DNA of 64,000 nt. Origin: Brevundimonas sp. GTDB lineage: Bacteria > Pseudomonadota > Alphaproteobacteria > Caulobacterales > Caulobacteraceae. Shown here piece by piece: positions 19,007 to 58,767 of this stretch. The stretch lies in contig NZ_JAUXQZ010000014.1 in assembly GCF_030682035.1 (NCBI RefSeq), positions 62,001-126,000 on the forward strand, read 5' to 3'. The notes beneath the pieces are model-generated. The model had not been told where the DNA came from. It ran no database searches and saw nothing but the letters and a program-made list of their open reading frames with translations. The position numbers were made by a program, and so were the translations under genes. Every line of letters starts with the position of its first letter. Positions within the stretch are counted from its first letter, which is position 1.

Positions 19007-19007
19007 T

Positions 19008-19134
19008 TCTCCCCCATCGGGGGAGGGGGACCGCGTAGCCGTGGAGGGGCCGCCTTGCGCACCGGCGTTTGCCGCAAGCCCCTCCACCACGCTGCGCGCG
19101 GTCCCCCTCCCCCTTTCGCTTCGCTTGGGGGAGG
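19008..19134. repeat. Paired palindromic intergenic repeat (BIME/REP-like), copy 3
   Basis: The left end (ctcccccatcgggggag) and right end (cccccttt...gggggag) are palindromic. The interior is inverted: ggggaccgcgtagccgtgga at the left is mirrored by ccaccacgctgcgcgcggtc at the right with a few mismatches. It lies directly after the SCO gene stop and before phaZ. Confidence 0.7.
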
Positions 19135-19207
19135 ATTAAATCTTTTTGCAGCGCGGTGTGTTTTATGGTGCTCTGCCGCATACGGCGGGGGCCGCTTCAA
19201 GGATTCC

Positions 19208-42476: not shown

Positions 42477-42551
42477 GTCCAATCGACATTCAGGGATTCC
42501 CGGATCGCCGGATGCGTGATTCATAGGTCTCCGCTTTGGCGGAGGTCTGAG

Positions 42552-42941: not shown

Positions 42942-43324
42942 CCACCAAGGTCCACATGGCCTGCGACAGCCTGGGCCGACCCGTCCGCTTCCTCATCGCA
43001 CCGGGCCAGAGCCACGATATCCTGGCCGTGCCCGCACTGCTCGAAGGCCATCGGCCCGCCGCCGTTCTCGCCGACCGCGCCTATGACGCCAACAGCCTTC
43101 GCCGCCATCTGGACCAGATCGGAGCCGAGGCCGTCATCCCCTCGACCCGCTCCCGCACGGTCCCGATCCCACACGATCGTCTGGTCTACCGGCTCCGCAA
43201 CCGCATCGAGCGCTGCTTCAACAGGCTCAAGCACTTCCGCCGCTTCGCAACACGCTTCGACCGGCTAGCCAGCCACTACCTGGCCTTCATCCACATCGCC
43301 GCCTCCATGCTCTGGATGCGCTGA
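42917..43324 (+). CDS. IS5-family transposase, second frame (orfB)
   Basis: About 135 residues in the -1 frame relative to orfA. It contains GRSRGGLTTKVHMACDSLGRPV, the second catalytic Asp in VLADRAYDANSLRR and the Y-(2)-R-(3)-E region RNRIERCFNRLKHFRR with the catalytic Glu. It is expressed mainly as a fusion with orfA after frameshifting; 42917 is just the first start-like codon. No internal stop, so the element may be active. Confidence 0.9.
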   Translation: MGRSRGGLTTKVHMACDSLGRPVRFLIAPGQSHDILAVPALLEGHRPAAVLADRAYDANSLRRHLDQIGAEAVIPSTRSRTVPIPHDRLVYRLRNRIERCFNRLKHFRRFATRFDRLASHYLAFIHIAASMLWMR

Positions 43325-43457
43325 ATGTCGATTCGTCCTAGCCGACACCGAGGAAGTCCGCTTGCGAGCCGCTGGCCGTAGCGTCAGGGTCTGCCGTCGC
43401 GTCTCTGCTGCGGGGACGCTCGGCTACGTCAATAACGGTCGCACACCTGAGCCCATA

Positions 43458-43467
43458 AGGCGTTCCC
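43458..43467. repeat. Left target-site duplication of the casposon
   Basis: aggcgttccc, repeated in the same orientation at 57582-57591 just outside the other terminal repeat. The match extends to 15 bases (aggcgttcccgcgaa) if the gcgaa shared by the element end and the original target is counted. Confidence 0.85.
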
Positions 43468-43516
43468 GCGAAGGGATAGAGCTACCGGCCCGATGAGCCG
43501 CACTCTAGGCACTAGG
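43468..43516 (+). repeat. Left terminal inverted repeat of the casposon
   Basis: 49 bases beginning gcgaagggatagagctaccg and ending gcactagg. It is complementary to 57533-57581 with a single mismatch (43507 a against the complement g). The end of the minus-strand helicase gene lies 113 bases inside. Confidence 0.93.
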
Positions 43517-43628
43517 GGGTTTTGTCCGGCTTCGGGTCGGATCAAATCACCTAGCGTCACAGACGGAGGTTGGGTGTGAAGCGCAACGTCGACATTGTGC
43601 TGGCTGTCAATTGCCCGTGAAGCGCGCC

Positions 43629-45581
43629 CTAAGCCAGATCAGCCTGATTGTGGATTGCGTTGGCTGGAAATAGGTCGCCCCCACGGAGTTTACGCTCCGC
43701 TGCAATAGGGTCTGCGGTGAACAGCACTACGGCAAGATCTTTGAGTGCCCTTGTGCAGTTTACGTAGAAGAGCCGTCTCGTCCTATCCAACGTGGACTCC
43801 TTGCCCTCGGCGATATTTTTTCGGTCCGCATCAGAAAGGTCTCTGATCTCGAGGTACTTTTCGTACGAAAACTGATTGTGCGTGCCCTCATCATCATCCA
43901 GCACCACAAGTACGCGTTCAAACTCTGCCCCTTTGATACCCTGCTGGGTCCAGAATGGCGACTTCTCCGAGATGTAGGTCTCGTACGGTCTGAACTGTTT
44001 AGCGGGAGCCGCCAAGAATGCGTCCATTGAGGCGATCTCCTTAGTTAGGTCTTCCCCATCATCCTCATCCTCTTCGTTGGCGTCGGGGTCCGGCTCGACT
44101 GGCTTGGCCATAGCGGGGTCGAGATACGCTTGGAGTCGAGGGTCGAGGACTAGAAGTCCGGCACCTTGAATGAGCCTCAGCACGTCCCCGTTGGTAGCCC
44201 TCGAATCGTCTCCGAGAGCTGCCGCGACTTGCAGCACGGTCTTTCGAAGTTCCTTTAGGCGGCCAGCAACGTCGAAGCCCGGGGCAGCCATCTCGCCTTT
44301 GTCGAGTAAGGGGGAGTGTGAGCGGAGCACCTGCATGACTTCCAGTTCTCGGTTAGCCTGCACCGCATGGAAAATTGGCAGAACGAACGAAACGAATGGC
44401 CGCAATGGCCAAGCGGTCCCTTCGAGGAACCCGGTCTTGAACGTCTCAGGTGCCTTGTCATTCAAGGCAGCGTAGAGGTCGCCGAATCCCAAACGCTTCG
44501 CCGCCATCCGATGAACGATCACAAGGACTTTGACCCCAGCGGTGTTTCCGTCGCCCTCGCTGTCGAGCCACGCCTCGTCGTTGGACATTTGAGACATCCA
44601 TTGTCTCACTCGAAGCAGATTGGCATCTCGGGTATTGTCTGCCGGCAGGATGAACAGTTCGGCTGTCCCTTCCGGCGTGGCAATCAGCCCGTTTGCACCT
44701 AAGCGTTCGCCAGCAACCTGCACGAGGTTATCGCCATCTCGACGGATGCGATTGGCGAGGTTCAAAACTTGAGTGGAGCAACGAAAGTTCTCTGGCTTTG
44801 GGATGTCGGCCCACGCCTCCGGCGCTTCGATCGCGCCGATGCCGGTTGCATAGATTTTCTGCATGGGATCGCCGAAGAAGCCGAGACAGATCGGGGAGGC
44901 AACATCCCCTTCCACGGTCTTGAAAGCAGTCACAACGTCGGTTGTCGTGTCTTGACTTTCATCGACAAAAACAAACGGAAACTGCCGAGCGAGCAGCGTC
45001 CTAAAGAGTGGCCGTTCTGCGATTAGGAACGGCACGAGTTTAAGAATGTCGTCGTGACCTAGCACTCCCTTGGGATAGTCGCTGCCTGTCCCATAGCGGA
45101 AAGACGGCACTGCGGAAATTTGGCCAACTTGACGGTTTAACCGCACCAGATCACGAGCCGTCTTGTCACGCGTCCGTTGCTGCACCCGAGGGCCGTACCC
45201 CGCTTGGGCTGCCGTCAAGGTCTCGATTTTTTCCTGTAATCGCGCGCCGACCCACTCTCGGATGTCGTTTTGGAACGGCTTGGACACCAGCCACATAAAG
45301 CTATGGATTGTAGATACATGCACGAGCGGGTCGTTTCCGACGTCGCGCCAAATCTCGCCCGCCGCCACGTCGGTATAGGTGATGCATGCGACGCGCTGAC
45401 GAGTTTTCCGTAGCTTCACGCCATGCGCCTCCACGACGGACGACAACGCTTTGATGAGAGAGGTCGTCTTACCCGAGCCCGCTCCGGCTTTCATTATGAA
45501 GCTGACTGGCGGAGCCGCCTGAATGCAGTTCCGCAAATCAATATCGGCCTGTGTGTCAGGCTTGTTGGCACGACTACTCAC
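43629..45581 (-). CDS. UvrD/Rep-type superfamily 1 helicase (GajB-like)
   Basis: 650 residues, all SF1 helicase motifs present: I MKAGAGSGKTTS (about 31-42), Ia/Ib (VACITYTDVAAGEI), II FVFVDESQDTT, III GFFGDPMQKIY, IV NFRCSTQVLNLANR, V QGIKGAEFERVLVV and VI LFYVNCTRAL. A very acidic insertion (DPDANEEDEDDGED) precedes motif V. The start is GTG 45581, overlapping the stop of the OLD nuclease gene (GTGAGTAG), which implies translational coupling. OLD nuclease plus adjacent UvrD is the Gabija / class 2 OLD arrangement, an anti-phage system. Both proteins are somewhat larger than the reference GajA/GajB. Confidence 0.9.
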   Translation of the reverse strand: MSSRANKPDTQADIDLRNCIQAAPPVSFIMKAGAGSGKTTSLIKALSSVVEAHGVKLRKTRQRVACITYTDVAAGEIWRDVGNDPLVHVSTIHSFMWLVSKPFQNDIREWVGARLQEKIETLTAAQAGYGPRVQQRTRDKTARDLVRLNRQVGQISAVPSFRYGTGSDYPKGVLGHDDILKLVPFLIAERPLFRTLLARQFPFVFVDESQDTTTDVVTAFKTVEGDVASPICLGFFGDPMQKIYATGIGAIEAPEAWADIPKPENFRCSTQVLNLANRIRRDGDNLVQVAGERLGANGLIATPEGTAELFILPADNTRDANLLRVRQWMSQMSNDEAWLDSEGDGNTAGVKVLVIVHRMAAKRLGFGDLYAALNDKAPETFKTGFLEGTAWPLRPFVSFVLPIFHAVQANRELEVMQVLRSHSPLLDKGEMAAPGFDVAGRLKELRKTVLQVAAALGDDSRATNGDVLRLIQGAGLLVLDPRLQAYLDPAMAKPVEPDPDANEEDEDDGEDLTKEIASMDAFLAAPAKQFRPYETYISEKSPFWTQQGIKGAEFERVLVVLDDDEGTHNQFSYEKYLEIRDLSDADRKNIAEGKESTLDRTRRLFYVNCTRALKDLAVVLFTADPIAAERKLRGGDLFPANAIHNQADLA

Positions 45582-47901
45582 CGGCCACCTCAACGTCGAC
45601 ACCCGCAGCGGCGGCGAGTTCGGCCACAATCGGCACGTCGGCTTCGACAGCGACTTGCTCCTTTAACCAGCCGAGTCCGGTCGAGATGTAGGCCGGCACA
45701 TTCCAAGAAGTGACCTCTTCGGTCATCACGCCTAGAGCGAACCTCGTCTTATCGAATGACTTGGAGCCCACTCGCTTATGCAGACCTTCAGCCAGCGCGG
45801 TCGGCGTCGCCGGAACGGTTCTGAGCACGAGTCCGATTTGCTTTCTGGCAGGAACTTGAGACCATTGGGGGTTCTCAAGGCCGAAGTCTTCTTCGAGCGT
45901 TCGCCCGCAGAGCTCTTCGATCGCGCCGTTCCACGTGATGGCTCTGCGCGTCTGATAAGCGACGCGCACCTTAGCACCGTCGTCCATCTCGTGCGTTTTC
46001 TCTGGATCGGTCGCGTTTTGCAGCTCGTCGATTGTGAGCTTCTGAGGAAGCCATTTAATCAGCGTCTGGTTTGAGGTCGCCGCTCCCGCTTCATTAGGCA
46101 GACAGGCTTTTCCATACTTCTTTTTGGTGAGCGACGGAGCCACTGCGCCAGCGTCAGCTTCATCTACGGCAGCTACCTCGTCATTGGGCACGTCGAATTC
46201 TTCAACTTCGTCAGCGTCCCCATCTTCGACAACCGGAGCGCCGCCGCCTCCTGCCGGCACGATCAGCGCCACGCTGTCGATGTCTGTGATTATCAGCGTC
46301 GTCAGGCCGAGAAACTCGATCAACGACTGGAATCGGTGCCCGAATGCGCCGCCCACCTCCAAGATGCAGAGACAGGACGATCGGAGTGACTTGGCCACCT
46401 TCTCAATCATTATCGGGAGAAGAAGTCGCTCAACGTTCCCTTCGACGAGGATCGCAGCATCTGAAAAGAACAGGTCGCAATGCGTGAGCTTGAGATACTT
46501 CTGAAGGAAATCGCGGTCGTCTGGTTGTGCCTCGTAGAAGGCGGAGAGGTTCAGAACTTCTGTCAGTTGCTCTGACCCGGATTTTCGCCTCCGGAAGTAG
46601 CGGATTGGTTTGAACCCTCGCTCGTACAGTATGTGAGGAGAATGGGTCGTGATGACCATTTGGCTAGAAAAAATGCTGCCGTCGTCATCATCGAGCTTGA
46701 GAAGCTCTAAGACATTTCGAATGAACACCTGTTGTAGTTGCGCGTGTAGATGCGCTTCAGGTTCCTCGACAAAAATTAGATGGAGCGGCGGTCGGTTTTC
46801 TTTGATGGATTGCCAGTTCGCCTGAGCGTCGAGGATTTCGACTACCATGTAGATCAGGTTCTTATAACCAAGACCGTTGTTGCTATCAGGGAGAGTGACT
46901 GCGTCCTCGCCTTGGCCCATCACATAGTGGACCTTCGCGTCTTGGCTCATGACGTGCGCGGGATCGAGGGCCGACATGATCTTGAGTTCCGGATTGTTCA
47001 GCCCGGGATATCCAAGTTTCGCCAATCTATCCAAGGTCGGTTTGAACACGCCGTCCAAGTGGAGATTGAGTGCCTTTTCCGAGTCCGAGAGCGCTTTCAG
47101 CGCGGAATGATCGTCCTGTCTCTGATCCAGATTCCTCTTGTAGAACCGGCTCAAACGCTTCGACAAATCCTCAGCGCGTCCGCCCGCTTCTCCGCTAGGG
47201 TCAGCGAGATGGCGCTGAGCGCCCAAGTTGTCGACCTTCAGAAGAGACTTGATAATGGTGGCTCCGCCGGGGTCTCCGCCTAGTTCATCGGGCACATAAC
47301 CGCCGACCTCTTTGAACGCGTCGTCAAAGCCGTTTCGGTCGAGAATTGAGTACCGAAATTCGAACTCTGTTCGGAGCTCCCTCTGCAAATAGTCAGTCAA
47401 TGATTTAGGCCAAGGCTCATATTCGGCCCCTTCCGGTAGCTCGCCAGCCAGTTCCAGACCCTTCGCCTTGGCAGCCTGATAGGACTTGATGAGCTCAACG
47501 GGATTTCGAGCCGTGAATGAGATACGCATCCCAACTTTCGTGCCTTGCCAAGCAGTGCTGGGTAGCAGCGGGATAACGAGATATAGGTCTTGGGCGGCGA
47601 CATCGAACCAGAGGTCGAGGCTTATGCTCGGCAGGTTCAGATCATCTGGAGAGCCGTTCGTTAGATCGAGGTCGCCAGCCTCATTGAACGCTTTCCACGT
47701 CGAAGAACTAAAATCGTAAAGGCTAAATCGGTCCTTATTAGCCGACACAAAATTCTGAAGAGCCTGTGTAGCGGATGTTTTACCGCTGTTATTCGATCCG
47801 ACGAATATCGATATATCCGGCGCAAGTTCGATATGCGCATCTTTAAGCCGCCGAAAATTTTTAAGTCGATACGAGTAAAGATGCACGGAGCCCCCAAGCA
47901 T
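45574..47901 (-). CDS. Class 2 OLD-family ATPase/TOPRIM nuclease (GajA-like)
   Basis: 775 residues. The ABC-type ATPase has Walker A VGSNNSGKTSA (about 34-44), signature NNGLGYKNLIYM (~341), Walker B FVEEPEAHLHAQ (~377) and switch His in TTHSPHIL (~418). The TOPRIM nuclease has its Glu in ILVEGNVERLLLP (Glu ~487) and DxD in IITDIDSV (~540/542). A Gly/acidic low-complexity insertion (~550-590) follows the DxD strand. In Gabija, GajA cuts DNA when nucleotide levels fall and GajB is its helicase partner. An in-frame GTG at 47886 (VHLYSYRLKNF) is an equally plausible start. 155 bases separate it from polB. Confidence 0.9.
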   Translation of the reverse strand: MLGGSVHLYSYRLKNFRRLKDAHIELAPDISIFVGSNNSGKTSATQALQNFVSANKDRFSLYDFSSSTWKAFNEAGDLDLTNGSPDDLNLPSISLDLWFDVAAQDLYLVIPLLPSTAWQGTKVGMRISFTARNPVELIKSYQAAKAKGLELAGELPEGAEYEPWPKSLTDYLQRELRTEFEFRYSILDRNGFDDAFKEVGGYVPDELGGDPGGATIIKSLLKVDNLGAQRHLADPSGEAGGRAEDLSKRLSRFYKRNLDQRQDDHSALKALSDSEKALNLHLDGVFKPTLDRLAKLGYPGLNNPELKIMSALDPAHVMSQDAKVHYVMGQGEDAVTLPDSNNGLGYKNLIYMVVEILDAQANWQSIKENRPPLHLIFVEEPEAHLHAQLQQVFIRNVLELLKLDDDDGSIFSSQMVITTHSPHILYERGFKPIRYFRRRKSGSEQLTEVLNLSAFYEAQPDDRDFLQKYLKLTHCDLFFSDAAILVEGNVERLLLPIMIEKVAKSLRSSCLCILEVGGAFGHRFQSLIEFLGLTTLIITDIDSVALIVPAGGGGAPVVEDGDADEVEEFDVPNDEVAAVDEADAGAVAPSLTKKKYGKACLPNEAGAATSNQTLIKWLPQKLTIDELQNATDPEKTHEMDDGAKVRVAYQTRRAITWNGAIEELCGRTLEEDFGLENPQWSQVPARKQIGLVLRTVPATPTALAEGLHKRVGSKSFDKTRFALGVMTEEVTSWNVPAYISTGLGWLKEQVAVEADVPIVAELAAAAGVDVEVAGE

Positions 47902-48056
47902 TGCCTATTTTGTGAGAAGCTACGTCAACCTTAGCGGGAAGTCGAGGCGTGCTCATGCCAAGGCCGAGATGCATTGACTGCGTTTCGAGAACGAGCCCCG
48001 CGCCGGAAACTCGACTAGTTTCTAGGTCGAGGGCAGCCCGGACCGCCGGTGAGACA

Positions 48057-51000
48057 TCACCCAACACGCCGACCGGTACGGTGCAATTTCGCGATCAGTC
48101 CGCCGGTGAGTGGCTTATCGCCGTTCAGAACCCTGTGCATATAGGGCCTGCTAACCTCCAACTGGTCTGCCAATTTGTTTCCGCTTCCGAGCTCGTCGCG
48201 ACGCCTTCGGGCGACCTCAAGCCACCTTTGCTGATCTCCTGCCACCGCCAATTGCGCTCGACGAATTCCCTCTAGCGCGCACACGACCGCGAACATCGAA
48301 CGCATCGTCACGCGCCCGCCGTTCTGCAATGCCGTGAGGGTGTGGTGGGACACCCTAGCCAGCAAAGTTATCTGCCGGTCACTGATCCTGAATTCTGCCT
48401 GCAATGCTTTCAGGTCGGTGATGAGCTTCTGCCGATCCTCTATGGTGACGCCATAGAGGATCGGATCGTCGCCGTCGCCGAACGTCTCCCGTTCGTCAAG
48501 ATTGTCGGCTTCCTTGCCGATCGCCGACGCGGCCCAAGCCTCGACATGGCGTCGCGACAACGTCCCGTGCTCCGCATCTTCGCCGCCCCGGAACTTGGAC
48601 TCTGAGTGCAGATGATGTCGCGACAGAGTGCGGCGATAGGAGCGCAGATGCTCCCACCCGATGACCTCACCGGTCTGCCGATCAAACACGTCGGGTCGAT
48701 CGAAAGTCAGGTCGGACGAATATCGGGACGCCGGTTTGGGAGATCGCTTGCGCCACAGGAAAGAGCTCAACGCCTCGGGATCAACCGCCGCCATCTCCAA
48801 ACGGGATTTGGCTTGGTAGGTCAGCAGGAAGTTGAACGGCCAAACCCGGTCCCGCTCATCAACGCCGGCATTGTAGCCCTTGAACCAGTTCAGGAGCGTT
48901 TGATTGGTAACCCCGTAACGCGTTGCCGCGGCTTCATCGATCCCAAGCAATTGATCGAGGTCCGGGCGATCGGGCCGGCCCGCGTCATGGGCGCGAATGA
49001 TCTCCGTCCAAAGGTCCGACTGCCAAAGCTGAACGCCGATCCGACCGGTTCGCGTGGGGTCCGGGTCTTTGTACGGCGCGATCAGATGCCCAAGGCCATG
49101 CCGAGACGCCTTGCGGATCACGGGCTCGCCGGCCTCGTCGCGATCAAACAGCACATAGCGTTTGGCGGAGGTCGCGAGACAGTTCACCGGGCGCAGCGTG
49201 TCAGGTTCTTTGTGCCGCCCTATCGGGAAGTTCACCTTTTCAAGCTGAAGGATCGATCCTTTCACGTCGTAAGGGTTGAGCGGTTCGAACCATTGCAGAA
49301 CCGCTTCAACGCGCGATCTGAACTCATCGCTTGGCAGGCCAGCGACGTTTGCGATGGCGAGACTGTCCGTATCGCAGAACGCCCATCCCAGCCCTTGATC
49401 CAGAGCGTTTTGCTCTGCCAGCGCCAGCATGAGGCGCGCGCCACCGGTGATGAGTGCGCCTAGCAGTGGATGGAAATATCGCCCCGGCTCTTCGATCTTC
49501 GAAGTGGTGATCCGACGCCCCTTGCCCCGATGGTCATAGCAAGTGACGGCGCGAGGGCGATCAAGCGACTGGACGTTGAGTTCCGCGAAGATGCCGTAGC
49601 TCGTAGAGTTCGCGAGGATTTTGAGTCCCTGCTGATTGGCCTCTAGCTGATCCCATTCCGCGCCGGTGGCGTCGTTCTGACGAGCCTGAACCTCGCGACG
49701 CATATTGATGATGGATGCGTAAAAATCGCCGGTGACCGGATTGAGCTCCGCACCTGCGAGGGTGACGGTCTTGAGCCGTGTTTGGGGCTGGCGCGGCGAG
49801 AACCGGACCGCAGAGATAATCTCTGGCGTCTTATGGCCCAAGAGCTTGGCGGCGATCACATCGGCCAAGGTGAACCATAGCGGCTCACCGCTCGTCAGCC
49901 GGTTCACGCCAATGGTTGCCGGCTGATCGGGTTCGTAGTGTGCGCGCACCGGAAACACGTCATCGCTGGCGCGCACCTGAACGATCATGTGCAAGCGCCG
50001 CCACGTCGCCGGATCGCGTAACTTGACGAGGTCGCTAGCCTCGACGAACGCCCGGCATTCGTCGGTCGCATCCGCCCAGTCCATGCCTTCGGCAATGACG
50101 AATTTCCACAGCCCCATGAGGGTGCAGACCGTCGGATACATCGACATGAAATCGCAGTGGATCACGGAGGTGATCTCGCGCCGGATATGCACCTCGGCGC
50201 GCCCGCCGAAATAGGAGCTCATGATCTGCCCGATGAGCTCGGGCGGGAAGTCGGGCTGCGCTTCCGTCCAAGGCTGGACGCCCATGGCTTGAAGGTACGC
50301 CTTGCCCAAGCTGGCTTCGCTGTAGAGTTCGTTCAAGCCGGTCTGTGACAGCCCCAAGGCCTGATAGCGCTTGGCCAGAAGGTCGAAGCATTCCCACGTC
50401 ACCTGCACATCATTCAGGCAGTAGGTAACCATCTCTGGCGTCAGTCGGCCTTCGTAGGAGTCGAGCGGGCTCTTCGGCGTGGTCTTCAGCAGGGCTGACA
50501 GGCTGGCGAGTGAATGGGATTGGCCCAAGAGCGACGCAGCAAGCGTCTTCACGTCGACAAAGAAACCGCGATCCGGCGATACGTCGGCGCTGCCCTTGCC
50601 GGCGAAGTTGATGAAGGCGGCGCGCTGCGACAGGTGCTTGACCCTGATGTTCGGACGCTTGTCGGCGAAGGTGAAGCTGAACCCGCCCTTCATCGATCCT
50701 TTGCCGTAGGTGTGGGAGGTCGCGAGGCGCGATAGATCGAAGGGCAAATTGAAGCCGACGATCAATGCGCCAACCTCCTGACCCCAACCGAACAAGACGT
50801 GGTCGATGAATTCCGTGCGCGAGATGAACTCCAGTTGCTCGCCATCATCGCTCGGGCGCAGTGCTCGAAAGGCCGCCTTGAGATCGGCACGGTCCTCTTT
50901 CGGAGCATCGTCGGCGTGGAATAGCCCACGCGCGATCAGACTGCCGCGATCTCTGATCTGGTATGCGCCGAAGCGCAGTCGCTGAGATGGATCGGTCGTG

Positions 51001-51152
51001 GTTTCGGTATCGAAGACGATACAGATGCCGGATGTCCAAGCGGACCGTCTACCGCGCTGCCCGCGCCGGCGCGGGCTCGCCACGTAGGCGCGCAGTTGAA
51101 TGATGAGCCGATCGATCGGATCTTCGATCGATGCCCGACTTTCTGGGATCAT
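48057..51152 (-). CDS. Family B DNA polymerase with proofreading domain and C-terminal HTH repeats
   Basis: 1031 residues. The 3'-5' exonuclease motifs are ExoI IVFDTETTTD (Asp48/Glu50), ExoII GFNLPFD (~133-139) and ExoIII YCLND (244-248). The polymerase motifs are A HCDFMSMYPT (Asp334), B KILANSTSYG (511-520), C FCDTDSLA (Asp594/Asp596) and KRY (664-666). All catalytic residues are kept, so the enzyme should replicate DNA; in casposons PolB is thought to copy the element. Two XRE-like helix-turn-helix segments at about 920-960 and 985-1025 form a tail unusual for a polymerase. It follows the HNH gene by six bases and is likely coupled to it. Whether priming is by protein or RNA cannot be told by eye. 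Confidence 0.93.
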   Translation of the reverse strand: MIPESRASIEDPIDRLIIQLRAYVASPRRRGQRGRRSAWTSGICIVFDTETTTDPSQRLRFGAYQIRDRGSLIARGLFHADDAPKEDRADLKAAFRALRPSDDGEQLEFISRTEFIDHVLFGWGQEVGALIVGFNLPFDLSRLATSHTYGKGSMKGGFSFTFADKRPNIRVKHLSQRAAFINFAGKGSADVSPDRGFFVDVKTLAASLLGQSHSLASLSALLKTTPKSPLDSYEGRLTPEMVTYCLNDVQVTWECFDLLAKRYQALGLSQTGLNELYSEASLGKAYLQAMGVQPWTEAQPDFPPELIGQIMSSYFGGRAEVHIRREITSVIHCDFMSMYPTVCTLMGLWKFVIAEGMDWADATDECRAFVEASDLVKLRDPATWRRLHMIVQVRASDDVFPVRAHYEPDQPATIGVNRLTSGEPLWFTLADVIAAKLLGHKTPEIISAVRFSPRQPQTRLKTVTLAGAELNPVTGDFYASIINMRREVQARQNDATGAEWDQLEANQQGLKILANSTSYGIFAELNVQSLDRPRAVTCYDHRGKGRRITTSKIEEPGRYFHPLLGALITGGARLMLALAEQNALDQGLGWAFCDTDSLAIANVAGLPSDEFRSRVEAVLQWFEPLNPYDVKGSILQLEKVNFPIGRHKEPDTLRPVNCLATSAKRYVLFDRDEAGEPVIRKASRHGLGHLIAPYKDPDPTRTGRIGVQLWQSDLWTEIIRAHDAGRPDRPDLDQLLGIDEAAATRYGVTNQTLLNWFKGYNAGVDERDRVWPFNFLLTYQAKSRLEMAAVDPEALSSFLWRKRSPKPASRYSSDLTFDRPDVFDRQTGEVIGWEHLRSYRRTLSRHHLHSESKFRGGEDAEHGTLSRRHVEAWAASAIGKEADNLDERETFGDGDDPILYGVTIEDRQKLITDLKALQAEFRISDRQITLLARVSHHTLTALQNGGRVTMRSMFAVVCALEGIRRAQLAVAGDQQRWLEVARRRRDELGSGNKLADQLEVSRPYMHRVLNGDKPLTGGLIAKLHRTGRRVG

Positions 51153-51158
51153 TTGGCA

Positions 51159-51527
51159 TCAATCGTCCGACGATCCGGTCTTGGCCGCAAGCCTGAACAT
51201 GAGTTCGGCCGACGTGTCCAAATGGCCCGCTATGAAGGTGAGATAGTCGCGCACACCTAGCAGCAGATGACCTTGGCGCTCCAATGGATCGCCGGGCGAA
51301 AAGCCGACCTTCGGATGCTCGGACTCCGCCCGCGCACTGCGTTTACGATGGCAGTTTACGCAGATGCCCCAGCACGCATCGTCCAAATCGCGTCGATAGA
51401 TGTGGTCAGCCTCGAAACACATCGGGTCGGTTTCGCCACAGATGCAGCGGACGTTTGGGACGCCAAGCCGCCGCAGGCTTCGATGGCGAACCGCGAGACG
51501 GCGGCGATAGGACTCGCTCTCGGTCAT
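51159..51527 (-). CDS. HNH nuclease
   Basis: 122 residues. The pattern is CICGETDPMCFEADHIYRR...WGICVNCHRKRSAR: Cys pairs flank the core Asp-His and the final Asn/His of an HNH (zinc-stabilised beta-beta-alpha metal) fold. An HNH gene is a recurrent casposon component; a role in excision or strand processing is inferred, not shown. The ATG overlaps the stop of the upstream HTH gene (TGATG), so HTH-HNH-PolB is one translationally coupled operon. Confidence 0.85.
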   Translation of the reverse strand: MTESESYRRRLAVRHRSLRRLGVPNVRCICGETDPMCFEADHIYRRDLDDACWGICVNCHRKRSARAESEHPKVGFSPGDPLERQGHLLLGVRDYLTFIAGHLDTSAELMFRLAAKTGSSDD

Positions 51528-52105
51528 CACTGCACGTCCGCGTAGATTTCGATGAAATTCAGATCATCGACCGCTTCCATTTTCCGCAGCACGTTTGGGC
51601 GCGTCTCGTAGGGGTGATAGCGCCCCTTCACGTCATAGAGCCCGTCCCCTTCGAACGGGAAAAGGTGTTCGTCATCGTTGGTTTCGAGGAAGCGATTGAC
51701 CGCTCGCCAATAGGAGCTGAGCAGGCTGCCCTCGTCATTCGTCAGGGTGACGGCGACTACCTTGCCTTGCGAGGCGATCCAGAACGACTGCGGTCGCAGA
51801 TCGAAGATCACCCATCGCCGCCCCTCTCGCAGCGATTGGGTATGCAAGAGGCGATGGCGTCGGAGCGCTTCGACGGAAACACCGGACACCTTGGCAGCTG
51901 CGGATTGCGATAGGCCCCGCCGCATGTGACCGAGGGCACGCTCCACCGCAGCGGTCCGATCGATCGAACTGGGTTCCGGCTTGGGCAGGTCAGCGGCGCG
52001 GGGGTGGCCGCGTGCCGCTGACCTGCTCTTGCCTGTCGCCAAGGCCCGTGAAATCCGGCGCTGATACTCCGCCCGGTAGTCCCGCTGTTTTCTGGTTTTC
52101 GGCAC
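51527..52105 (-). CDS. HTH DNA-binding protein, first gene of the polymerase operon
   Basis: 192 residues from GTG 52105 (VPKTRKQRDYRAEYQRRI), chosen for AAGGAG seven bases upstream; the frame continues 22 codons further without support. The N-terminal KTRKQRDYRAEYQRRISRAL is a basic motif seen in small phage/plasmid proteins. A helix-turn-helix lies around QSAAAKVSGVSVEALRRHR (~85-103). The C-terminal half has no recognised domain. It is probably a regulator or end-binding protein of the element. It is divergent from the next gene across 65 bases, which must hold both promoters. Confidence 0.7.
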   Translation of the reverse strand: MPKTRKQRDYRAEYQRRISRALATGKSRSAARGHPRAADLPKPEPSSIDRTAAVERALGHMRRGLSQSAAAKVSGVSVEALRRHRLLHTQSLREGRRWVIFDLRPQSFWIASQGKVVAVTLTNDEGSLLSSYWRAVNRFLETNDDEHLFPFEGDGLYDVKGRYHPYETRPNVLRKMEAVDDLNFIEIYADVQ

Positions 52106-52170
52106 CTGACTCTCCTTGGAGACGAGGCAGACCGAATTAGGCAGGCGCGCTGTTAACTCACGCCAAAACA

Positions 52171-53175
52171 ATGGGAGACATAAACTCCGAAATGTTGTTC
52201 AGGGATTTCTTTCCCCGGCTCCAAGCTCGCGCGCTGGCGCGTTACGGGGTGAGCCTGTCAGAACGGCAGTTCACCAACTGGCGGGAGAAGGGCTTAATTC
52301 CCGGACCCGCTCACCCCCGAGGTCGGGGGCGCGGGCTTTCGCCGGAACGCCATTGGCCGATGCAGGCCTATCGCCGAGCGCTGCGGATTTGCTGGTACAA
52401 GCAGCGCGGCATCGACCGCATCCCGGCTTGGTGGATACTGTTTTGGCTTGCCGGCGACGATGTCTCGCTCGACGTTCTGCGCAGGTCATTGCAGCGGGAA
52501 CTGAAGCGAGTTCGGCGACAATCGCGGTATCTGGCTGATAGCGGATACATACGATCCGACGGCTCTACGACCTTTGAGAAAGCGCCATCCGGAGCCAAGA
52601 ATAGTCCGTTCTCGTTGCTCCTAGACGAGCTCATCGAGACGCAGCACTTGGGCATTTCGCCGGAGCTCTATCGGGATTTCCTGAAGCTTGGGTTCGATGA
52701 GGAAAGCTCCTCCGAGACCGGCCGAATTTTTCAGGCGTTGGTCAAACCACTTATGGGGCACGGCATCACCCCCGAAGAGGTTGGCGTTTCGCTATCTGCC
52801 GTTTGGCGTCCGGGGCACTTGAGCGACACGGCCCATGACTACGTTGGCAGGTGCTCACAAGGTGATCTGGTTCTAGCCCGACAGATTCTGTGGGAGCAGT
52901 TGCGGCTGACGAGCCGGCTCGCGCCATTCGCCCATTTGTTGGGCGCCTCCAGACCAGCTTCGATTTTGTTCGTGGTCGCGTTTGCCATGGCCAATCGGAG
53001 AACTGGAAACCAACGGCTGATCAGCGACTTGCTTCAGCTGTTGTATCAAATCGCGGACGACACGCGGCACAACCTTGATCCCACCCGCCGCCTGAATTTC
53101 ATACTGAAACGTCTTCAAATGATGGAAGGCGATGACGTTGAGCTTGGATCACGCGGACCTGACACAGCCATCTGA
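52171..53175 (+). CDS. Unknown element protein with N-terminal winged-HTH-like segment
   Basis: 334 residues. The start MGDINSEMLFRDFFPRLQ may instead be the second Met at 52192, for which ggagac lies upstream. The N-terminal ~70 residues (VSLSERQFTNWREKGLIPGPAHP, then HWPMQAYRRALRICWYKQRG) resemble a MerR-type DNA-binding helix. The rest is helical with no motif I recognise. It starts the rightward half of the casposon, upstream of cas1, and could be a regulator, a terminal-repeat binding protein or a terminal-protein-like primer; none is proven. Confidence 0.65.
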   Translation: MGDINSEMLFRDFFPRLQARALARYGVSLSERQFTNWREKGLIPGPAHPRGRGRGLSPERHWPMQAYRRALRICWYKQRGIDRIPAWWILFWLAGDDVSLDVLRRSLQRELKRVRRQSRYLADSGYIRSDGSTTFEKAPSGAKNSPFSLLLDELIETQHLGISPELYRDFLKLGFDEESSSETGRIFQALVKPLMGHGITPEEVGVSLSAVWRPGHLSDTAHDYVGRCSQGDLVLARQILWEQLRLTSRLAPFAHLLGASRPASILFVVAFAMANRRTGNQRLISDLLQLLYQIADDTRHNLDPTRRLNFILKRLQMMEGDDVELGSRGPDTAI

Positions 53176-53248
53176 GCGCGTGCGATTTAGACCCTTCCAC
53201 GCGGCAGCTCATTGAGCTTTTAGCCGACCCTTTTCTGGGCCGTTAGGC

Positions 53249-53458
53249 ATGAGTTCGGATTCCGTTTGCCGTCGAAATTTGCTAGGAGAATTGGCGAGCC
53301 ACGAGTTCGCTAAGCGCGAGTTTCGACCGTGGGATCAGTGGCGGAAATCAGCGGGCAAGACGATGTCGCTTGGGCTGCTCGCAATGAGTATTGGAGCGCA
53401 CGAAACGATCGCCCTCGACGACCTCGTGGGAAGCATGAGCGAGCCCGCGAACCGCTGA
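53249..53458 (+). other. Small open frame overlapping the cas1 start region
   Basis: 69 codons (MSSDSVCRRNLLGELASHEF... ending MSEPANR). In the overlap, this frame looks more protein-like (MSLGLLAMSIGAHETIALDDL) than the cas1 frame above it, which reads as Arg-rich shadow. Its TGA falls where the recognisable Cas1 sequence begins (LILCGHGVSL) one frame back. Either this is a short leader protein coupled to cas1, or a -1 shift joins the two, or a sequencing indel split the natural Cas1 N-terminus (MSEPxxLILCGHG). Confidence 0.45.
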
Positions 53459-54408
53459 TCCTGTGTGGTCATGGCGTCTCCCTGAAGATCGACAAAGGGA
53501 CGCTTCTGATTCGCGACGGCTTCACGCATTGGCCACAGGAACGCCGGGAACTTCGCCTCTTCAAAGGGGCTCGCGATCTGCCACCCCGGATCATCATGTT
53601 GGACGGCAGCGGCTCGCTTTCATTCGACGTGGTGAGCTGGTTGTCGGAACAAGGCCTGCCTCTTGTCCGCGTGAACTATCAAGGCGACGTGGCCAGCGTG
53701 ATCGGCGGAGCGGGCTTCGCAATGTGTCCTGACAAGGTCCGATGGCAGATCGAAACCCGCGACGACCCGGAAAAGCGGTTGGCATTCTCATGCGATCTGA
53801 TCGGACGAAAACTGGAAAGCAGCCTCGAAACCCTGCGCCTCGCCATCCCCGCCAAGGCCGCTGCGCCGGCGATCACCCGGATCGAAGCAGCGCTCGGGAA
53901 GGTCGGCGGCGGTTCGGTGGCCAGCATCGACGAACTGCGCATGATCGAAGCGGTGGCGGCAGGGGCGTACTTCGCATCTTGGCAGGGATTGCAGTTGGAA
54001 TGGCGGTCCCGTCGTCGCCATCCGATTCCCGATGCATGGCTGACGATCAATGGCCGCAACTCCATCGGGGGAAGCCGGTCCCTGTCCAACCGGAACGCTA
54101 AACACCCGCTGAACGCGGTGCTGAACTACGCCTATGGACTGCTTTACAGTCAGGTCCAGATCGAACTGGTCGCCGAAGGCTACGATCCGCGCCGGGGGAT
54201 CATGCACCATGATCGAAAGGAAGCTGCCGCGCTCGCTTTCGTGTTTGACATGATCGAACCCCGCCGCGCCGGCATCGACGCGAAGGTGCTCAAGTTCATG
54301 CTGTCGTCAGTGTTCATGGGGGCGGATTTCGCAATCCGGGCGGACGGCGTCTGCCGGCTCTCTCCGCAGTTGGCGCGGCGCGTTTGCCATGTAGTCGCCG
54401 GCGAGTAA
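53329..54408 (+). CDS. cas1: Cas1-type integrase (casposase)
   Basis: The Cas1 fold is recognisable from LILCGHGVSLKIDKGTLLIRDG (residue 43 on) and RIIMLDGSGSLSFDVVSWLSEQGLPLVRV, the N-terminal beta domain. The helical catalytic domain has Glu207 in LRMIEAVAAGAYF, the segment KHPLNAVLNYAYGLLYSQ, His293/294 in GIMHHDRKE and Asp307/Glu310 in FVFDMIEPRR. These are the metal-binding residues of Cas1 integrases. The core is ~317 residues; the first ~42 codons from GTG 53329 look non-homologous, so the true start is unresolved. There is no cas2 or CRISPR array. With flanking terminal repeats and PolB, the role is transposon integration. Confidence 0.9.
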   Translation: MGSVAEISGQDDVAWAARNEYWSARNDRPRRPRGKHERAREPLILCGHGVSLKIDKGTLLIRDGFTHWPQERRELRLFKGARDLPPRIIMLDGSGSLSFDVVSWLSEQGLPLVRVNYQGDVASVIGGAGFAMCPDKVRWQIETRDDPEKRLAFSCDLIGRKLESSLETLRLAIPAKAAAPAITRIEAALGKVGGGSVASIDELRMIEAVAAGAYFASWQGLQLEWRSRRRHPIPDAWLTINGRNSIGGSRSLSNRNAKHPLNAVLNYAYGLLYSQVQIELVAEGYDPRRGIMHHDRKEAAALAFVFDMIEPRRAGIDAKVLKFMLSSVFMGADFAIRADGVCRLSPQLARRVCHVVAGE

Positions 54409-54509
54409 GCCATCGCCCGGCGCTGACATTTACGTCGGGATTGGGTCGCCCGCGTGGTGGCAGAGGGATCGCGGAAGGGCTAGCGTGCTCTCTATCGGAG
54501 GGCCAATCG

Positions 54510-57509
54510 TTGATTCCTGAATATCTCGAACGGGTAATAGCCCAGTTCAAAAGCGGTCAGGCCACCGAGCATAGCTATCGCCCCGCGCTCAACGACTTGT
54601 TTCAGAGCATTGACCCGTCTCTCACGGTCATCAACGAGCCGAAACAATCGGAGGGCGGTATGCCCGACTTCATGTTTCAGCGGGATGGCGTGCCGATCGG
54701 CTGGGCCGAAGCGAAGGACATCGACAAGGATGTCATCAAGCTAAAGGGCTATTCTGTTGACCAGCGTAAGCGTTACGAGGCGGCTTACCCGAACTTAATC
54801 TACACCAACGGAGTGGATTTCGAGTTCATCCGCGACGGTGAACCAGTCCATTTCGTCTCGATTGCCGACTTCCTGATGGGTCTTCAGCCCATCCCGGAAA
54901 AGTTTGATGAACTAGAACGCCAGCTCAAGCTTTTCGCCGAGCAGAAGCCCATCAGCATCCGTTCCGCCTCCAAGCTGGCGGCGATGATGGCGGCCAAGGC
55001 GGCGATCATCAAAGATGAAATTGCGCTGGCTTTACTTGAAGACCCCGAATTTCGCTCGGGCCTCGGCGGCCAGTTCAAAAGCTTCAAATCCAATCTGCTC
55101 CCGAACTTGGAGCCGGGCGAGTTTGCCGACATCTACGCCGAGACGATCACCTACGGCATGTTCGCTGCCCGCTTCCACGATGACGACCTCTCAACCTTCA
55201 GCCGCCAAGAGGCGATGGAGAAGCTCCCAGCGTCAAATCCGTTCTTGAAGGGCTTGTTCGAGTATGTCGCCGGCCCGGCCCTGCCGAAGCGGTTGACCTA
55301 CATCGTTGACGACCTGGTTGAAGTGATGCGAGCCAGCGATCCGCATTCTTTGTTCCGCGACTTCGGCAAGTTCACGGCCCGGAATGATCCCTTCATTCAC
55401 TTCTACGAAAACTTCTTGGCGGCCTATAATCCTAAGAAGCGTAAGAGCCGTGGTGTCTGGTATACCCCGGAGCCGGTGGTCGACTTCATCACCCGTGCCG
55501 TGGACGAGGTTCTGAAAACCGAGTTTCACCTGTCCGATGGCTTGGCCGATACGTCTAAGGTCACGGTGGACTGGGACACTGGCCAGAACCACGCCAAGAC
55601 GGGCAAGGCGGTAACCGAAAAGCGCCAAGTCCACAAAGTCCAGATTCTGGACCCCGCGACCGGCACTGGCACCTTCCTCGCCAAAGCCGTTCAGTTGATC
55701 TCAGATCGGGTCAAGTCCCGTGCGCCCGGCAAATGGTCGGGCTACGTAGAGCAAGACCTGCTGCCACGGCTTCATGGTTTTGAGCTGCTGATGGCCAGCT
55801 ACGCCATGTGCCACATGAAGCTGGACATGCAGCTGACCGAGAGCGGGTACAAGCCCAGCGCTAAGCCACCGCGTCTTTCCGTCTGGCTGACGAACGCGCT
55901 GGAGCCTGCGGAGCGGGATGTCCGGGACCTGTTCTTTCAGCCGTTGGCCGAAGAGGCTCGGGGAGCCAGTGAGGTTAAGAGACAGTCGCCCATCATGTGC
56001 ATCATGGGGAACCCACCCTATTCCGGAGAAAGCGCTAACAAGGGCGATCACATCACGAAACTGATGGAGGTGTACAAGAAGGAGCCGGGCGGCAAGCACC
56101 CTCTCGATGAGCGGAATTCGAAATGGCTCAATGATGACTATGTGAAGTTCATCCGTATGTCGGAGGACTTGATCGCTAAGAACGCGTCCGGAGGCGTCTT
56201 AGGGTTCATCTCTAATCACGGCTTCCTCAATAACCCGACGTTTCGAGGAATGCGGTGGCACCTTCTTAATTCGTTCGACAAAATTTGGGTGCTTGATCTT
56301 CACGGCAGCTCAAACAGAAAAGAACACGTTCCGGGTGGGGGCGCGGATAAGAACGTCTTTGACATCAAGCCGGGCGTTTCAATCATTATATGCGCTCGGG
56401 GTGCCAAGAAGAGCGACGAATTGGCGAGCGTTCAGCACGGGGACCTCTGGGGTACCCGAGCTGAGAAGGGTGCAGAACTCTTCTCGCTGAGCTTAACGGG
56501 CCCGAAATGGTCGGAGATCATTCCCGAGGCTCCGCACTACATGCTGCTTCCGTGGGACTATGTCGTGGACCGTGAGTTCCACCGTGGATTCTCGATCGAA
56601 CACGCACTGCCAATCCACTCGAATGGTATCGTTACGGGAGGCGACAAAACGTTCATCGCAGGCAGCGAGGCGGCTCTCCGGGAGCTTCACGGCGACGATG
56701 CTTCGATAAAACCGGTCTCTTATCGGCCGTTTGAGAAATCGTTCATCTTGGATGACGCGGAGAAACTCGAACGCGACCGATCGGACGTTATGGGCCACTA
56801 CCAAGTAAAATCGAATATCGGCCTCCTAGCCTCCAAGGCCTTCAACGATCTTGAGTTTGCCCATTCGTTCGTGACGACTCACCCGTCCGAAGCCATTTTT
56901 CTATCGGGAACCAGTGGCTCCAACGCGATGAACTTTCCTCTCTGGCTGTTCGAAGAGAGTAGTTTCGAAGAGCGTCGGACCAACTTGGATGCAAAACTGG
57001 TTCGCAAGCTTAAGGGCATTCTCGGTGAAGAACCGCAGCCGGAGGCCGTGTTCGATTACATCTATGGCGTCCTGCATGACCCGGCATACCGTTTGCGCTA
57101 CCGGCAAGCTCTCAGCATCGCCTACCCACATATCCCTTACCCATCCTCTCCAGAGATATTCCTGCGCATTTCTAAGATGGGGGAGGCACTACGCCGACTG
57201 CATCTCATGAACGCAGAAGCCATCGGCGATACGCCCTATCCCTACGAGGGCGAGGGGGATGACGTGGTTTTGCCGACCTATCCAACATTCGTTGAGGGTC
57301 GCGTGTATGTTAATCCGACCCAATATTTCGGGGGCGTACCCGCCGCCGCTTGGAGCTTCTTTATCGGCGGCTATCAGCCAGCTCAGAAATGGCTGAAAGA
57401 CCGGCGTCGCCGGAGCCTGTCATGGGACGAAATCGGCCAATATCAGAAGATCATAAAGATACTGGCTGAGACAAACCGGATCATGGGCGAGATTAAACTC
57501 CCTCTCTGA
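54510..57509 (+). CDS. Single-chain restriction-modification enzyme (type IIG / ISP-like)
   Basis: 999 residues from TTG 54510 (IPEYLERVIAQF), supported by GGAGGG seven bases upstream. A PD-(D/E)xK-like nuclease site is at MPDFMFQ...WAEAK (Asp53, Glu67, Lys69). A connecting helical region precedes the N6-adenine methyltransferase with motif I DPATGTGTFLAKA (~381-393) and motif IV MGNPPYSGES (NPPY ~501-504). The last ~350 residues should recognise the DNA target (for example FDYIYGVLHDPAYRLRYR). There is no helicase domain, hence type IIG-like rather than true ISP. It lies 101 bases after cas1 and 23 bases from the right terminal repeat. It may defend against phage and stabilise the element. 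Confidence 0.88.
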   Translation: MIPEYLERVIAQFKSGQATEHSYRPALNDLFQSIDPSLTVINEPKQSEGGMPDFMFQRDGVPIGWAEAKDIDKDVIKLKGYSVDQRKRYEAAYPNLIYTNGVDFEFIRDGEPVHFVSIADFLMGLQPIPEKFDELERQLKLFAEQKPISIRSASKLAAMMAAKAAIIKDEIALALLEDPEFRSGLGGQFKSFKSNLLPNLEPGEFADIYAETITYGMFAARFHDDDLSTFSRQEAMEKLPASNPFLKGLFEYVAGPALPKRLTYIVDDLVEVMRASDPHSLFRDFGKFTARNDPFIHFYENFLAAYNPKKRKSRGVWYTPEPVVDFITRAVDEVLKTEFHLSDGLADTSKVTVDWDTGQNHAKTGKAVTEKRQVHKVQILDPATGTGTFLAKAVQLISDRVKSRAPGKWSGYVEQDLLPRLHGFELLMASYAMCHMKLDMQLTESGYKPSAKPPRLSVWLTNALEPAERDVRDLFFQPLAEEARGASEVKRQSPIMCIMGNPPYSGESANKGDHITKLMEVYKKEPGGKHPLDERNSKWLNDDYVKFIRMSEDLIAKNASGGVLGFISNHGFLNNPTFRGMRWHLLNSFDKIWVLDLHGSSNRKEHVPGGGADKNVFDIKPGVSIIICARGAKKSDELASVQHGDLWGTRAEKGAELFSLSLTGPKWSEIIPEAPHYMLLPWDYVVDREFHRGFSIEHALPIHSNGIVTGGDKTFIAGSEAALRELHGDDASIKPVSYRPFEKSFILDDAEKLERDRSDVMGHYQVKSNIGLLASKAFNDLEFAHSFVTTHPSEAIFLSGTSGSNAMNFPLWLFEESSFEERRTNLDAKLVRKLKGILGEEPQPEAVFDYIYGVLHDPAYRLRYRQALSIAYPHIPYPSSPEIFLRISKMGEALRRLHLMNAEAIGDTPYPYEGEGDDVVLPTYPTFVEGRVYVNPTQYFGGVPAAAWSFFIGGYQPAQKWLKDRRRRSLSWDEIGQYQKIIKILAETNRIMGEIKLPL

Positions 57510-57532
57510 GCGACCGGCAGACGGAGCTCAGA

Positions 57533-57581
57533 CCTAGTGCCCAGAGTGCGGCTCATCGGGCCGGTAGCTCTATCCCTTCGC
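57533..57581 (-). repeat. Right terminal inverted repeat of the casposon
   Basis: 49 bases ending gctctatcccttcgc, the complement of the left repeat with one mismatch. The restriction-modification gene stops 23 bases inside. Confidence 0.93.
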
Positions 57582-57591
57582 AGGCGTTCCC
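57582..57591. repeat. Right target-site duplication of the casposon
   Basis: aggcgttccc, identical to 43458-43467. It continues gcgaaaagaac into the recA promoter region, which reconstructs the uninterrupted target. Confidence 0.85.
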
Positions 57592-57605
57592 GCGAAAAGA
57601 ACATA

Positions 57606-57633
57606 TTGGCAACCAGAACAAACCGTGTACTAA
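57606..57633 (+). promoter_or_regulatory. Putative recA promoter with LexA-like box
   Basis: ttggca (57606) and tactaa (57628) are spaced by 16 bases, a plausible -35/-10 pair, about 80 bases before the recA start. Overlapping the -10 is gaac-N7-gtac (57616-57630). This is one mismatch from gaacN7gaac, the complement of the direct-repeat SOS box gttcN7gttc of Alphaproteobacteria. The casposon end lies only 24 bases upstream. Confidence 0.6.
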
Positions 57634-57711
57634 CTGCACCTCAACAGGGAGCGGGTCCAGGCGGGTCTCTCCCGGAACCAGATGGGAATCATGGCAAGGG
57701 AGAGTGGCAAG

Positions 57712-58767
57712 GTGGCAGCTCAGGCGAATCTGAAATTGGTGGGCAAGGACGACGGCGACAAGCAGCGCGCGCTCGAGGCGGCGATCGCCCAGATCGACCG
57801 CGCCTTCGGCAAGGGCTCGGTGATGAAGCTGGGCAAGGGCGGGGTGGTCCAGGAGATCGCCTCGGTCTCGACCGGCTCGCTGGGTCTGGACATGGCGCTG
57901 GGTATCGGCGGCCTGCCGCGCGGCCGGGTGATCGAGGTGTTCGGGCCGGAAAGCTCGGGCAAGACGACCCTGGCCCTGCATACGGTGGCCGAGATCCAGA
58001 AGGCCGGCGGCACCGCCGCCTTCGTCGACGCCGAACACGCGCTCGATCCCGGTTACGCCCAGAAGCTGGGCGTCAACCTCGACGACCTGCTGGTGTCGCA
58101 ACCCGACACGGGCGAACAGGCGCTGGAAATCGTGGACACCCTGGTGCGTTCCGGCGCCGTGGACATCGTGGTTATCGACTCCGTCGCGGCGCTGACGCCC
58201 CGGGCCGAGATCGAGGGCGAGATGGGCGACAGCCTGCCCGGCCTGCAGGCCCGGCTCATGAGCCAGGCGCTGCGCAAGCTCACCGGCGGCATCAAGAAGA
58301 GCAACACCATGGTCATCTTCATCAACCAGATCCGCATGAAGATCGGCGTGATGTTCGGCAACCCCGAAACCACCACCGGCGGCAACGCGCTGAAGTTCTA
58401 CGCCTCGGTGCGGCTGGACATCCGCCGCACCGGCAGCATCAAGAAGGGCGAAGAAGTCATCGGCAGCGAGACCAAGGTCAAGGTCGTGAAGAACAAGGTC
58501 GCGCCGCCCTTCAAGACGGCCGAGTTCGACATCCTCTACGGCGAAGGCATCAGCCGCGAGGGCGAGATCATCGACATGGGAGTGGCCGCCCACATCCTCG
58601 ACAAGAGCGGCGCCTGGTACGCCTACAACGGCGAGAAGATCGGCCAGGGCAAGGACAACGCGCGCGAGTTCCTGCGCGAGAACCCCGAGATCTCGCGCGA
58701 GATCGAGAACAAGGTCCGCCAGTCGATGGGCATTCCGCTGCTCGGCGGCGAGGCTGCGGCCGCGTAA
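57712..58767 (+). CDS. recA: RecA recombinase, probably a chimera of two lineages
   Basis: 351 residues from GTG 57712, whose start [20 protein letters not shown] lines up with Caulobacterales RecA; GGGAG lies nine bases before. Walker A is [10 protein letters not shown]. The first half ([32 protein letters not shown]) reads as alphaproteobacterial. The second half ([75 protein letters not shown]) reads as betaproteobacterial. The switch is somewhere around residues 150-190 (58,150-58,290). The frame is intact and all motifs are present, so the product would be functional if real. Confidence 0.9.

Follow-up and report, generated by a model that had tools for sequence, protein, structure and literature searches.

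Casposons are regarded as the origin of the enzymes of CRISPR adaptation. Adaptation by Cas1-Cas2 duplicates CRISPR repeats that are often palindromic, and relatives of the casposon described here likewise duplicate the core of a palindrome; our casposon differs in lacking Cas2 and an array, in that a whole element is inserted and in the length of the duplication, 14-17 nt among these elements. Another point of comparison is Tn7, whose integrase is unrelated to Cas1. As with Tn7 at attTn7, our casposon is inserted beside and not inside a conserved gene, Tn7 being located downstream of glmS and the casposon upstream of recA (PMC4046053).

The bacterial (family 3) casposons, for instance those of Henriciella marina, Nitrosomonas sp. 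AL212 and Streptomyces albulus, are described as combining Cas1, a family B DNA polymerase (PolB), an HNH nuclease and a conserved helix-turn-helix (HTH) protein with terminal repeats and a target duplication, and as having no other recombinase (Krupovic et al., 2014; PMC4046053). The casposon in the window (the whole 64,000-nt stretch of DNA analyzed, from a Caulobacteraceae host) shares all of these traits; the HNH and conserved HTH proteins beside PolB fit family 3, and its Cas1 is without an extra domain, like that of Henriciella (PMC4046053). Family 3 is described as intergenic (PMC6614799), whereas the target in the window is the promoter of recA. Cargo also differs, since HenMar-C1 is described as carrying a C5 methyltransferase, a kinase and a Cas4-helicase fusion and the window casposon carries a Gabija pair and a type IIG enzyme.

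Defined casposon targets have so far been mainly archaeal, namely tRNA genes and an elongation-factor gene, and the median target duplication is given as 15 nt (PMC4046053). The casposases of Aciduliprofundum boonei and Methanosarcina mazei resemble that of the window in integrase fold, in a 14-15-nt duplication and in having a conserved host gene adjoining the insertion, but they insert at the 3' ends of tRNA genes and not at recA; moreover, a C-terminal HTH is present in the M. mazei enzyme and missing from the 359-aa window Cas1 (PMC6614799; PMC6977970). An unpublished casposon survey is mentioned in PMC9966878.

Structure and boundaries of the casposon

The window casposon (14.1 kb) spans positions 43458-57596, just in front of recA. 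It very probably lies between two 15-nt copies of recA-promoter sequence, with Cas1 as the predicted integrase that joined its ends there. The features of the locus are as follows.

43425-43443, plus strand: left half of the sequence natively upstream of recA, TACGTCAATAACGGTCGCA, which the casposon separates from the gene
43458-43472, no strand: left copy of the target duplication AGGCGTTCCCGCGAA, 15 nt, perfect
43468-43516, plus strand: left terminal inverted repeat, 49 nt
43629-45629, minus strand: GajB, UvrD-like helicase of Gabija, 666 aa (PADLOC GajB, 1.5e-249, residues 18-662)
45574-47901, minus strand: GajA, ATPase-TOPRIM nuclease, 775 aa (PADLOC GajA, 5e-282, residues 7-760)
48057-51152, minus strand: PolB, family B DNA polymerase, 1031 aa (phrog_1907, 2e-13)
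51159-51530, minus strand: HNH endonuclease, 123 aa (PHROGs, phrog_338 HNH, 2.3e-4)
51527-52171, minus strand: HTH1, conserved casposon protein, 214 aa (HTH label from the sequence-only reading and the literature)
52171-53175, plus strand: HTH2, second putative HTH protein, 334 aa (without family match)
53329-54408, plus strand: Cas1-type casposase, 359 aa (Pfam Cas_Cas1, 1.5e-30)
54384-57509, plus strand: type IIG restriction-methylation enzyme, 1041 aa (PADLOC REase_MTase_IIG, 2.8e-246)
57533-57581, minus strand: right terminal inverted repeat, 49 nt
57582-57596, no strand: right copy of the target duplication AGGCGTTCCCGCGAA, 15 nt, perfect
57599-57613, plus strand: SOS-box-like site of the recA promoter, GAACATATTGGCAAC, 2 nt from the right duplication
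57682-58767, plus strand: recA, the neighboring host gene, genus-type to ~58277 and then of another lineage

GajB, GajA, PolB, HNH and HTH1 thus precede, all on the minus strand, HTH2, Cas1 and the type IIG enzyme on the plus strand. The sequence-only reading had proposed a complete casposon, and every testable defining feature of one was found: Cas1, PolB, terminal repeats and a target duplication, with no cas2 and no other recombinase (serine or tyrosine) or transposase among the eight element proteins scanned, and no CRISPR-like array at positions 38000-60000 of the window. A repeat search recovered the 49-nt inverted repeats with the one mismatch previously noted, and it also gave a 52-nt pair (43465-43516/57533-57584, 96%); the next-longest inverted pair in the region (31 nt, 81%) corresponds to the ends of an IS5-like element outside the casposon. 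The direct target duplication claimed earlier is real and its two copies are identical, the last 5 nt of the left one (GCGAA) being common to the terminal repeat. As the right copy ends at 57596, the right limit of the element has to be moved there from 57591.

The right repeat has five additional letters, TTCGC (57577-57581), beyond the GGG end of most relatives. Reverse-complemented, they equal the five letters that close the duplication, and they may be left over from an earlier insertion at a recA site.

The G+C content is 0.58 within the casposon, compared to 0.68 on its left and 0.67 on its right. A search for further copies of the terminal repeat returned only two in the whole genome, i.e., a single element, and a whole-genome search gave one Cas1 and no second. 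Recent and perhaps ongoing mobility had been suggested; given one genomic copy in one strain, recent movement rests on the near-identical ends, and 'ongoing mobility' needs toning down.

Casposon core genes

In Cas1, residues E207, H293, D307 and E310, which we take to be the catalytic ones pointed out by the sequence-only reading, are present and invariant in 35 aligned sequences. Both by profile and by predicted fold the best match is the casposase of M. mazei, and a tree sets the window protein apart from the pair of CRISPR Cas1 sequences included, each of which has a very long branch. By these comparisons the window Cas1 is closer to casposases than to CRISPR Cas1, as the casposon call implied.

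PolB carries three motifs that we presume to be those of the exonuclease and three that we presume to be those of the polymerase, consistent with a full enzyme. Its C-terminus has an HTH match (phrog_3642, 1.3e-4), Pfam DNA_pol_B_2 is matched below its cut-off only, and the protein is 38-45% identical to the PolB of the related loci L004 and L022. The HNH nuclease, as named earlier, is backed by its PHROGs match, and the HTH proteins keep that label without a family match; HNH, HTH1 and HTH2 had no Pfam match in the scan of element proteins. By tblastn, homologs of HNH were found in 16 and of HTH1, adjoining PolB, in 21 of the 26 fetched loci. As for HTH2, a stretch resembling the C-terminus of its homolog in L023 lies in another frame at 53249-53458 (interval 53175-53458), overlapping the start of cas1; judging from the reading frames, HTH2 may be broken or frameshifted, and sequencing error or decay could explain the out-of-frame stretch.

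Cargo genes of the window casposon and of related casposons

The Gabija pair and the type IIG enzyme, along with the recA site and the frequency of casposons in the host's order, had been overlooked by the sequence-only reading. GajA, GajB and the type IIG enzyme make up approximately half of the casposon length and all lie inside the repeats. GajB, whose listed start codon is TTG, has the Walker A motif GAGSGKT and DESQD, and GajA has an OLD-like TOPRIM domain (2.1e-16) with the motifs VEGNVE and TDID. As in known Gabija systems, both genes are full length, adjacent and on the same strand with their motifs present; the difference is that this pair is carried by a casposon. With GajA (ATPase and TOPRIM) adjoining GajB the pair is complete, and protection against phages is predicted. 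The type IIG enzyme (Type_ISP_C, 2.7e-58; motifs PDF...EAK, DPATGTG and NPPY) combines nuclease, N6-methylase and specificity domains in one chain, the nuclease part being recognized by motif only. A tRNA gene as target was also considered: ARAGORN called a tRNA-Gln within the type IIG gene (56414-56490), and this call is taken as false because Rfam gives no match at 43400-58300.

Cargo was further examined in 17 other casposons, from which 40 larger ORFs were chosen by hand and scanned with PADLOC at 1e-10, G816 and G465b being left out. Defence models were matched by 19 of the 40 ORFs, spread over 12 of the 17 elements. In the flanks, 1 or 2 of 51 ORFs (>=250 aa) matched, through two MotB-type models with one member each, and this control is weakened by the fact that some flank ORFs may be antisense frames. 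Matches above 200 bits were obtained in seven of the 17, namely PD-Lambda-4 (L087), type II restriction (L088), Cas9 (L093), OloA/OloB (L098), PDC-S54 (L099), LmuA/LmuB (L100) and PDC-M60 (L101); OloA/OloB and LmuA/LmuB presumably denote the systems Olokun and Lamassu. Weaker matches were Avs-like (L097, L102), mad3-like (L086, L098), RmrA-like (L022) and to a DUF4062 protein (L021), and the tested ORFs of L089, L090, L092, L094 and L103 gave no defence match. L021 has, at 5840-9116 and 17155-19620, at least one radical SAM gene and the 821-aa DUF4062 protein with a weak HEAT-repeat match.

The casposon of L093 (G612:C29, 5538-18841) contains at 12658-18514 a complete type II CRISPR-Cas locus with Cas9, type II Cas1, Cas2 and an array of 17 units of 66 nt. 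The same casposon has its own casposase, and its ends sit in the hairpin CCCCGCTTTCGCGGGG. Among the matches listed, in mainly open-access literature, no named defence system was reported as casposon cargo beyond the methyltransferases and a restriction endonuclease of PMC4046053.

The recA promoter as integration site

The right duplication is followed after 2 nt by the SOS-box-like site and, 85 nt past its end, by the listed start of the recA frame. The SOS-box form GAAC-N7-GAAC, which we take to reflect the LexA consensus, is found in L004, L006 and L048. The flanks of the casposon belong to the host genus, probably Brevundimonas, a named sequence of which is among the Cas1 homologs. The stretch right of the junction is matched in 130 of 131 genomes of the genus (own genome included, E up to 0.001), four of them weakly. 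When the flanks were joined by script, they aligned with 25 uninterrupted recA upstream regions of the 29 fetched. The motif TACGTCAA, stranded on the left of the casposon, occurs with near forms upstream of recA in 22 of these 25 genus relatives, and its distance to the GAAC of the SOS box after joining is 50 nt, the same as in four of the 22. The empty site that the sequence-only reading had proposed to look for therefore exists, related genomes having an uninterrupted recA upstream region at the repeats. The other outcome that the sequence-only reading had named as speaking against a casposon, a Cas1 grouping inside a CRISPR-Cas type with an array nearby, did not occur either in the tree with two CRISPR Cas1 proteins or in the array search at 38000-60000. 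A Cas1 search across the host's family matched 14 of 390 genomes, and the only genus members beyond the window's own genome were two weak matches (~2e-5).

A second recA casposon (L021/L004) was found in another genus, on a 435-kb contig, at the same nucleotide. Its Cas1 is 53% and its PolB 38% identical to those of the window; its repeats end GGGGTA(T/G)AGCGAAGG, and its 15-nt duplication GGCTTCAAGAAACAA is followed by AAGAACATATTG as in the window. In a third genus, the decayed L006 shares that repeat end, here at a distance of 16 nt from the SOS box of recA, its cas1 remnant being oriented the opposite way. Since two casposons coincide to the nucleotide and a third, decayed one adjoins recA, we regard the recA promoter as an integration site; the support comes from two elements delimited on both sides and from one remnant. 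The two complete elements belong to one Cas1 clade (13 rows, support 100/99), which has no known hairpin-site element among the 2 of 13 rows whose insertion sites are known. L022, of the same family and outside this clade, sits in a hairpin.

Control of the casposon by the SOS response was considered and found no support: exact GAAC-N7-GAAC occurs once inside the element (49287), and twice in the whole window versus 1.8 expected.

Hairpin targets of related casposons

Casposons are common in the host's order. The earlier impression that bacterial examples are few does not hold there, as a PolB profile matched 24 of 398 genomes, three of them (G031, G426 and G643) weakly or partially. The same profile matched 3 of 385 genomes in a sample of the class and 5 of 249 in a sample of the phylum, counts that include the window's genome and others already found before. 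A viral origin was not supported: PolB had no match among 50,697 phage records, and IMG/VR yielded no casposon Cas1 (36 pattern matches, none confirmed). A plasmid search gave one partial Cas1 match.

Both ends were set for 20 elements, the window casposon included, and palindromes were counted on these 20. The count excluded the decayed G677, the fragments L006, L023 and L024, the remnant or weak matches G426, G643 and G031, G1216 and G582 because their contigs are short, and G565 and G465a because neither end was located. Also excluded were L095 and G1336, each with a single end that on visual inspection adjoins a palindrome. Ends in GGTATAG were present on both sides in 16 of the 20 elements and on one side in one. 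In 16/20 (L022, L087-L090, L092, L093, L097-L103, G816 and G465b) the duplication is centered on a hairpin whose stem is perfect and at least 8 base pairs long and whose loop measures 3-7. As background, such hairpins were counted at 104 of 54,872 host positions of the same loci (0.19%), and at 23 of 2,851 outside ORFs (0.8%). Four elements depart from this pattern: the window casposon and L021, both at recA, L094 (imperfect hairpin by folding) and L086 (stem 6). With stems of only 3 and 2, the window casposon and L021 are not covered by the hairpin rule.

In the clearest cases (L090, L093, L098, L099 and L103) the 14-nt duplication coincides exactly with the center of the hairpin, a 4-nt loop and the five pairs that border it. 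The hairpin extends past the duplicated part; duplication of the whole palindrome was thus rejected, and the core alone is duplicated. A hint of a palindromic target motif has been given for archaeal family 2 casposons (PMC4150552) and a palindromic tRNA arm lies beside the A. boonei site (PMC9939771), so our finding extends observations already made in those papers. Among the matches listed, in mainly open-access literature, neither recA nor a hairpin was reported as a casposon target.

Lineage change and left flank

Right of ~58.28 kb, inside recA and outside the casposon, the contig belongs to another lineage. Compared with the genus relative L027, 20-nt blocks are 90-100% identical up to ~58.28 kb and 55-90% thereafter, and similarity to six relatives is gone by ~58.7 kb. 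The change lies ~680 nt past the casposon, and the 60-nt blocks in between are mostly 85-98% identical to genus recA (lowest 73%). Further right, sucC, of which the genome contains another copy, shows 67-76% identity to its best genus matches among those listed. A second, partial recA at the contig end (G000:C8:238444-239057) is closer there, at most ~95% in most blocks, and for that reason is not simply the other half of the window recA. An assembly chimera is a likely cause (the genome is rated 5.4% contaminated) and recombination a possible one. The stretch 43345-58277 is coherent and holds all features claimed here.

On the left, gene 40758-42476 is genus-like (88% in G151) and is not beside recA in G151 or G090. 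Between this gene and the casposon lies an IS5-like element (42470-43344) with two overlapping transposase frames and 31-nt ends 81% alike. It stops ~113 nt short of the casposon and could be the trace of a rearrangement or a misjoin.

Proposed mechanism and alternative explanations

PolB, together with the HNH and HTH proteins, may help to make or repair a DNA copy of the element. Cas1 would bind the terminal repeats and attack the target strands 15 nt apart (14-15 nt in relatives), in the window at a site adjoining the SOS box of recA, and the gap would then be filled by host repair, which would give rise to the duplication. Because the SOS box and promoter core remain downstream of the casposon, the insertion should be tolerated and recA should still work. 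The Gabija pair and the type IIG enzyme would guard the host from phages and thereby repay the upkeep of the element. In the hairpin class, cut points symmetric about the dyad suggest that the palindrome, or a cruciform extruded from it, is what is recognized. For the recA class, the sequence that stays constant adjoins the duplication, comparable to the sequence that the A. boonei enzyme needs beside its own duplication (PMC6614799).

That the casposon has been immobilized and is kept as a chromosomal defence island, its ends being relics and selection acting on the Gabija pair and the restriction enzyme, seems to us rather unlikely. It would agree with the single copy, the possibly frameshifted HTH2 and the decayed casposon pieces in the family (L006, L023), but the repeats differ at only 1 of 49 positions and the duplication is perfect, Cas1, PolB and HNH are uninterrupted with key residues present, and G+C is still well below that of the host. 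We give a smaller chance to the view that the defence cargo is unrelated to the element and built up by chance between its ends. Cargo does vary among the casposons examined, and five of the 17 have no defence match in the tested ORFs; against this stands the difference between 19 of 40 cargo ORFs and 1 or 2 of 51 flank ORFs matching defence models at 1e-10, a count whose weak points are the hand-chosen 40 and the possibly antisense flank ORFs.

Coincidence or an assembly artefact could be invoked for the proximity to recA, given that the contig switches lineage inside recA at ~58.28 kb and that the IS5-like element ends ~113 nt left of the casposon. Yet the change of lineage lies ~680 nt beyond the casposon with genus-like blocks in between, the casposon is bordered by the two halves of the native recA upstream region, and in a second genus an element occupies the identical nucleotide position on a contig of 435 kb, so this explanation was already disfavored and is highly improbable. 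The reading of the locus as a CRISPR-Cas remnant, or as a stand-alone Cas1 in a defence island, has practically no chance: although Pfam and NCBIfam call the protein Cas1, there is no array at 38000-60000 and no second Cas1 in the genome, the casposase ranks first by profile and fold, and PolB, repeats and duplication are present. The ends and the empty site had already refuted it. A casposon inserted in the recA promoter remains our preferred reading.

Implications for alphaproteobacterial casposons

Taking the related elements together, we think it probable that alphaproteobacterial casposons are mobile defence islands which choose their site by the shape of the DNA. They would mostly enter perfect hairpins in a symmetric way and duplicate the core of the palindrome, much as Cas1 duplicates palindromic CRISPR repeats, and the Cas1 clade of the window would have switched to the SOS promoter of recA. 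Such elements would carry from host to host systems such as Gabija, Lamassu, restriction, Olokun-type and STAND-like ones, and in one case a complete CRISPR-Cas9 locus is on board, which brings both branches of the Cas1 family into one element.

Two defined targets are added here, the recA promoter and hairpins with a duplicated core. A site-specific integrase inserting next to recA while leaving the gene intact might find use as a tool. The hairpin class offers a direct and testable link from the target duplication of a transposon to the palindromic repeats of CRISPR, and the defence cargo, including CRISPR-Cas9 in one case, fits the idea that casposons were among defence genes when CRISPR arose.
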